The notes beneath the pieces were generated by a model. That model was given only the letters and a program-made list of their open reading frames with translations, was not told the origin of the DNA and did no database searches. Positions 5,959 through 37,513 of a stretch of 64,000 nt of DNA are shown one piece after another. Made by a program: the position numbers and the translations under genes. Source of the DNA: Chryseobacterium lathyri (lineage in GTDB: Bacteria; Bacteroidota; Bacteroidia; Flavobacteriales; Weeksellaceae); NCBI RefSeq assembly GCF_030812195.1, contig NZ_JAUSSF010000001.1, positions 2,170,001-2,234,000 on the forward strand. The letters run 5' to 3'. Every line of letters begins with the position of its first letter. Position 1 is the stretch's first letter.

Positions 5959-6089
5959 AAAATTAAAAGATTTAAAAATTAAAAAATTAAGAGATTAGAA
6001 GAGAAAAAGAATAAAGATTGAAAAACGGTTTCGGCCATGACACAAACTTTAAACTTTGAATTTTAAACTTAAAATCTCAAATCTATATT
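5959..6089. repeat. Degenerate palindromic spacer B between nuoM and nuoN
   Basis: The left arm is made of A-rich words (AAAGATTTAAAAATTAA, GAGATTAGAAGAG), the centre is near ACGGTTTCGGCCATGACAC, and the right arm is made of words such as AAACTTTAAACTTTGAA and AAAATCTCAAATC. The reverse complement of the right arm (GATTTGAGATTTTAAG) resembles the left arm word for word. It has the same architecture as the nuoH/nuoI spacer and no coding potential. I cannot tell whether transcription continues through it. Confidence 0.55.
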
Positions 6090-36014: not shown

Positions 36015-36151
36015 TAGAAGTTATAAACTAGAGGTTACATGTTAGTGAATGGAAGTTTGAAGACAGGAAATATGGGTAACAGTACACTAAAACCCGAAAC
36101 TCACAACCTCCCAGTAACTCGCAACACGTAACTCATCATAACACGTAAAAC
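36015..36151. repeat. Degenerate palindromic spacer D between ddl and coaD
   Basis: The left arm carries AGAGGTTACATGTTAGTGA-type words. The right arm ends in CAACACGTAACTCATCATAACACG; its reverse complement contains GAGTTACGTGTTGCGAG, resembling the left arm. The centre is near GGGTAACAGTACACTAAAACCC, itself a small palindrome. There is no ORF. Confidence 0.55.
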
Positions 36152-36616
36152 ATGAAAATTGCTGTTTTCCCCGGATCCTTTGATCCTATTACCCTGGGAC
36201 ATTATGATATTATTGAAAGAGCGGCTCCGCTTTTTGACAAACTGATTATTGCAATCGGACAGAATTCCCAGAAAAAATACATGTTTCCCCTGGAAAAAAG
36301 AATGGAATTTATTCAAAATTCCGTCGCCGAATTTCCCAATGTGGAAGTTGACTTTTTTGAAGGCTTAACGGTAGACTACTGCTTTGAAAAGGATGCACAA
36401 TACATTCTCAGAGGCTTAAGAAATCCCGCCGATTTTGAATTTGAGAAAGCCATTGCTCATACGAACAGAACCTTAGCCCATAAAAAGCTGGAAACCGTAT
36501 TTTTACTAACCTCATCAGGAAAGTCTTTCATCAGCAGCAGCATCGTAAGGGAGATCATCAACCATAACGGAGAATATGAGTTATTGGTTCCGGAAGCCGT
36601 TAGGGTACAACGATAA
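36152..36616 (+). CDS. coaD: Pantetheine-phosphate adenylyltransferase
   Basis: This enzyme transfers AMP from ATP to 4'-phosphopantetheine, the penultimate step of coenzyme A synthesis. The nucleotidyltransferase motif FPGSFDPITLGHYDII (TxGH) is at the N-terminus, RGLRNPADFEFE in the middle and SSGKSFISSSIVREI near the end, as in all CoaD. At 154 residues it has the family length. A palindromic element follows the stop immediately. Confidence 0.96.
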   Translation: MKIAVFPGSFDPITLGHYDIIERAAPLFDKLIIAIGQNSQKKYMFPLEKRMEFIQNSVAEFPNVEVDFFEGLTVDYCFEKDAQYILRGLRNPADFEFEKAIAHTNRTLAHKKLETVFLLTSSGKSFISSSIVREIINHNGEYELLVPEAVRVQR

Positions 36617-36880
36617 GTAAGGAATAATAGGTGATGAGTAATTGGGGAAATATAGATTACAGTCAAATTTTTCCATTCTTGTGATTAGATCTCTTTCATT
36701 ATTACCTTATTCAGATGATGTTTTGGTCATAAGAAAGCAAATTATAAGGTCTTCTACTTCAGCAGCAAATTACAGAGCTGTTTCAAGAGCAAGATCTGAA
36801 AAGGAAAAGTTTAGATTATCGCAGCCTTAAATGGCATAATTTTTATTATTCATTGCCCATTACCTATTACTCTATAAATT
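36617..36880. repeat. Palindromic element E, arms flanking a four-helix-bundle gene remnant
   Basis: The left arm (36621-36643, GGAATAATAGGTGATGAGTA...) and right arm (36851-36873) are complementary at 18 of 23 positions, with three further G-T pairs. The roughly 205-nt loop between them encodes the decayed remnant of an intervening-sequence (four-helix-bundle) protein. Long stems closed around such an ORF are the known layout of 23S rRNA intervening sequences, but this copy lies between coaD and a channel gene. Confidence 0.6.
36642..36830 (+). pseudogene. Remnant of a four-helix-bundle (23S rRNA intervening sequence) protein gene
   Basis: The 62-codon frame has only a TTG start, inside the left arm of the palindromic element. 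It preserves part of the family: VIRSLSLLPYSDDVLVIRKQ and then IIRSSTSAANYRAVSRARS. The family motif is normally one residue longer here (STS-x-x-ANYRA), and the protein ends after KEKFRLSQP, whereas intact members are 115-130 residues with two more helices. I read it as a truncated, non-functional copy; a very short live gene cannot be excluded. Confidence 0.6.
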
Positions 36881-37513
36881 ATGCACGAACAGTTCAATTT
36901 TGCCATAGAGGTGCTCGGAACTATTTCCTTTGCGATGTCGGGAAGTTTTGCAGCGATGCAGAAACGCCTTGATCCGTTCGGGGTACTGATTATTGCATTC
37001 GTCACTTCTGTGGGCGGAGGAACTGTAAGAGACCTCCTGCTGGATATTCCTGTTTTCTGGATGCATGATCTTTTAACGTGCGCGCTGATTTTGGGAACAA
37101 GTATTTTTGCCATGATCTTCAAATCTATTGAAAAGAATTTCAAAGTAACCTTATTTATTTTTGACAGCTTCGGGCTGGGATTATTTACCATTATCGGAGT
37201 TCAGAAAGGATTAAATGCAAACATACATCCCTTAATATGTATTGCGCTTGGGACCATAACCGGCTGCTTCGGAGGGATCATACGGGATATTCTCCTCAAC
37301 AGGATTCCACTGATCTTCAGGAAAGAGATCTATGCTACAGCATGTATCGTCGGAGGGTCTGCATTTCTGCTGCTGACCAAGTTTGTCCCGCTTTCCTATA
37401 CATTTATACAGATATTCACCATTATCCTCATTGTTGCGATCAGAACACTTGCCGTCAAATACCAATGGCAGATTCCTAAGTTTTATGGCTATGATCAGAA
37501 TTCTGAGATGTGA
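36881..37513 (+). CDS. TRIC/UPF0126-family cation channel protein
   Basis: This is a 210-residue inner-membrane protein with about seven helices arranged as two homologous halves, each marked by a glycine-rich motif: VGGGTVRDLLL in the first and FGGIIRDILL in the second. This is the UPF0126 (YadS) family, structurally related to animal trimeric intracellular cation channels that conduct potassium; the cargo in bacteria is less certain. The start is the ATG right after the right arm of the palindromic element. A convergent terminator follows. Confidence 0.88.
   Translation: MHEQFNFAIEVLGTISFAMSGSFAAMQKRLDPFGVLIIAFVTSVGGGTVRDLLLDIPVFWMHDLLTCALILGTSIFAMIFKSIEKNFKVTLFIFDSFGLGLFTIIGVQKGLNANIHPLICIALGTITGCFGGIIRDILLNRIPLIFRKEIYATACIVGGSAFLLLTKFVPLSYTFIQIFTIILIVAIRTLAVKYQWQIPKFYGYDQNSEM

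Follow-up and report, generated by a model that had tools for sequence, protein, structure and literature searches.

A small S23–heptamer element, known until now mainly from rRNA genes, appears to sit between ordinary genes in many bacteria

The spacer between coaD and a TRIC gene of Chryseobacterium lathyri, which measures 264 nt from the stop codon of the one to the start codon of the other, holds a short hairpin around what looks like the scrap of a gene, and the question raised by this locus is what kind of object occupies the spacer, and where else it occurs. The original prediction took it for a relative of the intervening sequences (IVSs) of 23S rRNA genes, inserted here with a fragment of a gene of the S23/IVP family in its loop. 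The features of the locus, within the window (the whole stretch of 64,000 nt that was analysed), are as follows.

36152..36616, + strand: coaD, the left neighbour, its stop codon abutting the element (TIGR01510, 174 bits)
36617..36880, + strand: the whole coaD-TRIC spacer, read as a decayed S23-type (IVS-like) element, with homologues of about 430 nt in which the S23 gene is intact
36622..36642, + strand: 5' arm of the inverted repeat, degenerate GTAATGA-type heptamers, the word being read from the sequence and from homologous spacers
36642..36830, + strand: remnant of a four-helix-bundle (S23/IVP) gene, a mechanical ORF with a TTG start (TIGR02436; intact homologues)
About 36663-36815, + strand: the family-like stretch of the remnant, residues 8-58
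36852..36872, + strand: 3' arm of the inverted repeat, pairing with the 5' arm
36881..37513, + strand: TRIC/glycine-transporter gene, the right neighbour, its start codon abutting the element (PF03458, 156.6 bits)

Taken alone, the arms of the window copy (21 nt each, 81% complementary) are modest, dinucleotide shuffling of the 60-nt ends of the spacer having equalled them in 101 of 5000 cases (p about 0.02), and in a wider inverted-repeat search their score of 30 lay within the range of the shuffles, whose maximum was 38. Folded as RNA, the spacer falls far below its shuffles (z -5.08), which is not the case with DNA parameters (z -0.37). The sole NCBIfam match of the ORF is TIGR02436, “four helix bundle protein” (E 2.3e-4), at 21.3 bits, just below the curated cut-off of 24 bits, and a Pfam search of the same ORF gave no match. 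Complementary termini and, as a remnant, an S23 frame in the loop are present here as in a 23S rRNA IVS; the position is not that of such an IVS, the spacer lying between coaD and TRIC rather than within a 23S rRNA gene, and an Rfam scan of the window found no match.

The homologous spacers of related species are considerably more informative. A total of 80 TRIC loci were gathered, of which 65 had coaD alongside, the 15 without coaD being left out. Among the 66 coaD-TRIC spacers classified, window included, 28 contain an S23 element, complete or as a remnant, with arms of the GTAATGA type, 19 have a hairpin of GATAAAT-type words without S23, and three have arm-like words only, with 16 showing neither form by the rule applied, including two (L038 and L041) which are GATAAAT hairpins by eye. 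In eight relatives, an S23 frame of at least 105 residues is intact at this position, and the complementary termini, weak for the window alone, are clear in 40 of the 51 spacers of at least 70 nt, which have end-to-end inverted repeats at p<0.01. The hairpin predicted between coaD and TRIC is thus borne out by these spacers, as is the S23-family fragment in its loop by the intact frames at the same place, and the insertion of an IVS relative between the two genes finds support in the intact copies that occupy this spacer in relatives. The comparison of filled and empty spacers among species, which the prediction had called for, found a filled spacer in some species and other contents in the rest. 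The closest flanking sequence to that of the window is L039, also from C. lathyri (91% over 1925 columns), and the most similar TRIC protein is that of C. antibioticum (98%). Set against the homologous spacers, the window copy, at 264 nt vs. about 430 nt in relatives, is a pseudogene that has undergone internal deletions. In three other remnants (L043, L060 and L096) the gene has been lost and the GTAATGA arms are kept, wholly or partly.

The two forms of the spacer alternate among sister species (L071/L104, L057/L055 and L069/L078), in which the flanks, compared in 60-nt steps, are mostly 85-100% identical as far as the stop codon on one side and the start codon on the other, with unrelated sequence between the two, so that the switch between the S23 form and the GATAAAT hairpin falls exactly between the two codons. 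The hairpin form holds a conserved TTTGCTTAAGCAAA-like core. The possibility that the S23-less spacers are simply emptied versions of the filled copies was rejected, given that both word and core differ (GATAAAT vs. GTAATGA); the true deletion remnants (L043, L060, L096 and the window) retain the GTAATGA word. On the species tree the filled state of the coaD-TRIC spacer does not cluster (16 changes vs. 16.7 when shuffled), a result that speaks neither for nor against vertical descent. In Elizabethkingia (L087 and L090), the coaD-TRIC spacer of 27 nt resembles one arm (ATGAGTAATAGGTAAT) without its partner.

Other heptamers are visible in the window. The ddl-coaD spacer, one gene upstream of the element, has the heptamers GTAACTC/GCAACAC/GTAACTC at 36114-36134 and GTT-type words earlier on, forming by eye another S23-less palindrome, and solo heptamer arrays (TCTAACA and AACTTTA-like), with neither an inverted partner nor an S23 gene, are found at 1111-1159 and 6043-6074.

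The S23 family is widespread. Matches to PF05635 were found in all 25 of the Chryseobacterium genomes searched, with 3-18 in each, and S23/IVP matches in 84 of 118 Bacteroidota genomes. The genus sample covers 116 of the 231 matches, mostly high-scoring and therefore biased to intact genes, the phylum sample 30 loci, the best one from each of 30 of the 84 genomes with a match, and the plasmid sample 19 of 43 rows, mostly cyanobacterial, with genes from Cyanobacteria, Chloroflexota, Gemmatimonadota, Alphaproteobacteria, and Cytophagia. Counts refer to ORFs that cover the profile, those covering less than 75-80% being left out together with loci too near a contig end.

The arms around these genes consist of tandem, degenerate heptamers, the word of which differs between sites, including AGTTTAA, TTAGTTG, AGATATT, GGCTTTT, TGTACAA, and ATGTAACA, the last with a period nearer 8. 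Sequence identity at a lag of 7 nt, upstream and downstream, respectively, was 0.46 and 0.45 in 119 genes of the genus, 0.39 and 0.40 in 30 from other Bacteroidota, and 0.48 and 0.53 in 19 plasmid genes, compared with about 0.30 at most other lags and with 0.34 and 0.32, without a periodicity peak, around 58 control genes of the window. In the upstream flanks of the genus, identity was 0.46, 0.42, and 0.41 at lags 7, 14, and 21, and about 0.31 at most others. A strict heptamer array was recognized beside 71 of 169 genes (44/120 in the genus, 11/30 in the phylum, and 16/19 on plasmids), and a lenient one beside 119 (80/120, 21/30, and 18/19).

The arms are also mirrored. End-to-end alignment strongly favours the own arms of the 117 full-length S23 genes of the genus over swapped ones, the inverted-repeat medians for own and swapped arms being 28 and 16 in the genus, 24 and 16 in the phylum, and 32 and 16 on plasmids, and the S23 flanks likewise exceed those of the 58 window control genes (28 vs. 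17, p 1.5e-20). Within single sites, own arms outscored swapped arms at p<0.05 in five of 12 tests (fadB-fadA, fadA-ACAD, carA-carB, groEL, and coaD-TRIC), the other seven being non-significant. The arms have a polarity, in addition, with G exceeding C in the upstream flank of 143 of the 169 S23 genes and C exceeding G in the downstream flank of 133, a bias of a kind that is absent from 368 control genes. No strong phase pattern was found within the heptamer (only p 0.0145, at neighbouring phases). At the level of the group, then, the object found is an S23–heptamer element, that is, an S23 gene between inverted arms of tandem heptamers.

These elements lie within operons of ordinary genes, the names of which come from the reading of translated neighbours. 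They were found between fadB and fadA at 22 loci across the Bacteroidota, between fadA and an acyl-CoA dehydrogenase gene (ACAD) at 10, between carA and carB at eight, and beside groEL at 11, with further sites between the two halves of metH, between trpE and trpG, between cas6 and cas4, and between DUF1156 and Swt1 genes. The fadB-fadA junction seems to be an insertion hot spot; where it has no S23 gene (L333-L362), it often has either a spacer of 640-675 nt containing palindromes of the GCTCCGTAGGAGC type or some other small ORF (L351 and L356). At trpE/trpG, the element is present in two of the 30 genomes read, and the spacers of the remaining genomes measure 16-267 nt, some with solo heptamer arrays. 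The arms in L393 and L395 reach into trpE at its end and into trpG at its start. The trpG frame takes in the 3' heptamer arm in L393, L395, and L415, and the protein thereby gains extra N-terminal residues rich in N, Q, P, and T. At the 3' ends of fadB and trpE, the heptamer word often overlaps the stop codon of the host gene (TTAG...), as if taken from, or fitted to, the target. In plasmid pNe_5 of Nostoc edaphicum (L264), an element with nearly perfect TAGGGAG arrays lies between nrdB and nrdA, on the opposite strand.

Comparison with known systems places the element class with the IVSs of 23S rRNA genes, here in spacers inside ordinary operons. An S23/IVP ORF is found in the loop of many, not all, of these IVSs. 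A locus on an Azospirillum plasmid (L273) is a genuine case, an LSU rRNA gene (RF02541, 1676 bits) with an S23 frame, the downstream (3') arm of which is heptameric by eye. In Coxiella, according to the accessible text of PMC4990558, the IVS has a 28-bp stem and tandem GACAGAT heptamers before its S23p frame, the number of repeats varies among strains, and the IVS is excised by RNase III. As far as this source goes, the two groups have in common a terminal stem whose loop contains an S23-family ORF, the decay of this ORF, and, in Coxiella and in L273, tandem heptamers beside it. The elements described here differ in that they lie between protein genes, occur many times per genome, and have words that change from site to site and S23-less copies of the same word.

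The heptanucleotide tandem repeats of cyanobacteria are known as STRR. Published heptamers include GGGAATC in Xanthomonas, GGGGATT in Nostoc, and convergent inverted pairs in Xanthomonas, 70 in Xcc and 75 in Xac (PMC4692102), TAACTGA in Beggiatoaceae, Cyanobacteria, and Bacteroidetes (PMC4679880), and those described from Geobacter (PMC2700814), all as given in the available portions of these papers. They resemble the arms in being 7-nt tandem repeats in spacers, inverted in the Xanthomonas pairs, and differ in that the portions available of PMC4692102 and PMC4679880 make no link to S23, one of them stating that no mechanism is evident. S23 genes are merely tabulated in what is accessible of PMC5524665. 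Within the literature covered, which has most subscription journals and preprints outside its scope, nothing linking S23 genes with heptamer arms was found, and heptamers and IVSs appear together only in the accessible text of PMC4990558, for Coxiella only.

A homologous protein, Avd, the accessory protein of diversity-generating retroelements to which PF05635 has been linked (PMC10053308, as far as accessible), also works with a nucleic-acid process; the elements read here differ from these retroelements in having no reverse transcriptase, TR, or VR, and no reverse transcriptase with a TR/VR pair was found inside the coaD-TRIC spacers read. REPIN/RAYT systems and MITEs share the pattern of short palindromes scattered through spacers alongside a less frequent relative that carries a gene; the present element differs in having no transposase and in arms that are word arrays rather than a fixed sequence. 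No Y1 (RAYT) transposase was found inside the element, and the transposase expected in autonomous copies of a MITE/TIR transposon is absent from the intact coaD-TRIC spacers, which contain the S23 frame only, with no room for another.

The genome of the window itself has palindromes that lack S23 but carry the same word as S23-bearing copies. The 15 matches to ATGTAACA, grouped by hand into 11 places, comprise the S23 gene at carAB, one place beside a decayed S23 gene (L006), and nine palindromes with arms some 30-80 nt apart and no S23 gene between them; the count of the pattern barely exceeds its reversed control (6/9 vs. 3/10), and only the palindromic layout speaks for these places. The window's own word likewise occurs in S23-less palindromes (L440 and L441), and two empty palindromes at metH (L368 and L390) match the arms of S23-bearing copies at 45-53, compared with a shuffled maximum of 35. 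The idea in the original prediction that empty palindromes are the same element without its ORF is directly supported by these word-sharing copies and meets a complication in the S23-less coaD-TRIC spacers, which have GATAAAT in place of GTAATGA and so are not just the filled insertion without its ORF. The check that it had proposed, whether intact S23 genes elsewhere also lie between palindromic arms, gave a positive result in the genus, the phylum, and other phyla. The heptamer make-up of the arms, the change of word from site to site, and the strand polarity go beyond what had been predicted.

The tree of 128 S23 proteins bears on whether the elements move. Most junctions hold a single clade, 11 of 14 site groups requiring one change, which suggests that inheritance is mostly vertical and movement rare. 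The fadBA junction requires three changes, and carAB and fadA-ACAD two each; the S23 genes at fadBA fall into three lineages and those at carAB into two. Three pairs of related S23 genes have a word in common across different sites (L148/L154, L226/L005, and L158/L164, with arm scores of 50.8, 43.5, and 38.0, respectively). Across the full set of 6740 different-site pairs, greater similarity of the proteins is not accompanied by greater similarity of the words (Spearman -0.11), shared words being confined to the closest proteins. No clean before/after pair with a target duplication was found. What can be read directly from the loci is the anatomy, the 7-nt period, the inversion, and the excess of G over C in the flank 5' of the S23 gene, together with several independent arrivals at one junction, three cases of word-sharing across sites, and word-sharing empty palindromes. 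The words common to S23-less and S23-bearing copies, and the related S23 pairs, support an element that would be mobile, IVS-like, and MITE-producing.

The single clade at most junctions, the recurrence of fadB-S23-fadA across the Bacteroidota, and the agreement of protein and word within a site would also suit a settled host gene, inherited in its operon position without mobility, with the heptamer arms as its operator or processing site. This reading is unlikely, given the several lineages at the same junction, the words common to different sites, the many decayed copies, the S23 gene on the strand opposite to nrdB-nrdA, and the S23-less palindromes with the same word. Slightly less likely still is an arrangement in which the palindromes are a separate, REP-like repeat of the host or a mobile one, serving as a landing site into which S23 genes fall as passengers; S23-less heptamer palindromes do exist and other elements also occupy the fadB-fadA junction, but S23 genes carry heptamer arms across phyla and inside 23S rRNA, the polarity of the arms follows the S23 gene, and related S23 genes take the same word to different sites.

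A mutational artefact, with slippage producing the heptamers and template switching their inverted copies, would account for the solo arrays seen here and for the over-representation of long heptamer SSRs in bacteria (PMC4692102 and PMC4679880, in the parts accessible). It is very improbable, however, given that strict arrays are about fifteen times rarer per kb in general intergenic DNA than in S23 flanks, with 13 in 116 kb from eight S23-bearing genomes compared with 62 in 35.9 kb of S23 flanks in the genus. Slippage leaves the fixed polarity and the one-family gene in the loop unexplained, and arrays and polarity of this kind are absent around control genes. In four S23-free genomes, a small sample, there was one strict array in 45 kb of intergenic DNA, and three of the eight S23-bearing genomes have no intergenic array, one of them with nine S23 genes. 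Chance pairing around an unrelated gene scrap, for which the modest arms of the window and its sub-threshold family match might speak, is hardly credible and was rejected, since homologous spacers hold intact genes and arms at the same place.

The feature in the window is thus probably a degraded copy of a small mobile element, an S23/IVP gene between inverted arms made of heptamer arrays. A published S23 relative is a homopentamer (accessible text of PMC4990558), and the solved structure of a relative (2rld) has five chains. The S23 protein may bind the heptamer word on RNA or on single-stranded DNA. It would promote movement or copying, both of its own element and, acting in trans, of empty palindromes. 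The stem at the gene borders may make the insert tolerable to the host, perhaps through cutting by RNase III as in rRNA, and internal deletions would later erode the copies, the one in the window being an example. Inside the element there is no nuclease, transposase, or reverse transcriptase, so that the mobilising enzyme would presumably have to come from elsewhere. G-U mispairs are not in excess over A-C mispairs on the sense strand of the arms (63 vs. 87, p 0.06), and the sense strand folds no better than the antisense (z -2.14 vs. -1.80, p 0.13, in the 48 elements covered of 77 prepared), so that a role at the level of DNA, or of either strand, is as likely as an RNA stem.

A more far-reaching proposal, which is tentative and may well prove wrong, is that of a new class of element, whose identity would reside, rather than in any constant terminal sequence, in a 7-nt word, repeated and mirrored around the gene for a pentameric four-helix-bundle protein that reads one heptamer per subunit. 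The IVSs of rRNA, the heptamer repeats of cyanobacteria, and many orphan palindromes would then be its states, with a word that might be exchanged or seeded afresh at new sites. To our knowledge, no function has been assigned to the S23/IVP family, decades of reports on heptamer repeats have come with no mechanism, and there is no agreed origin for the intervening sequences of rRNA. Should S23 genes in general prove to lie within mirrored arrays of heptamers, the function of S23, the mechanism behind the heptamers, and the origin of the intervening sequences would become a single question.
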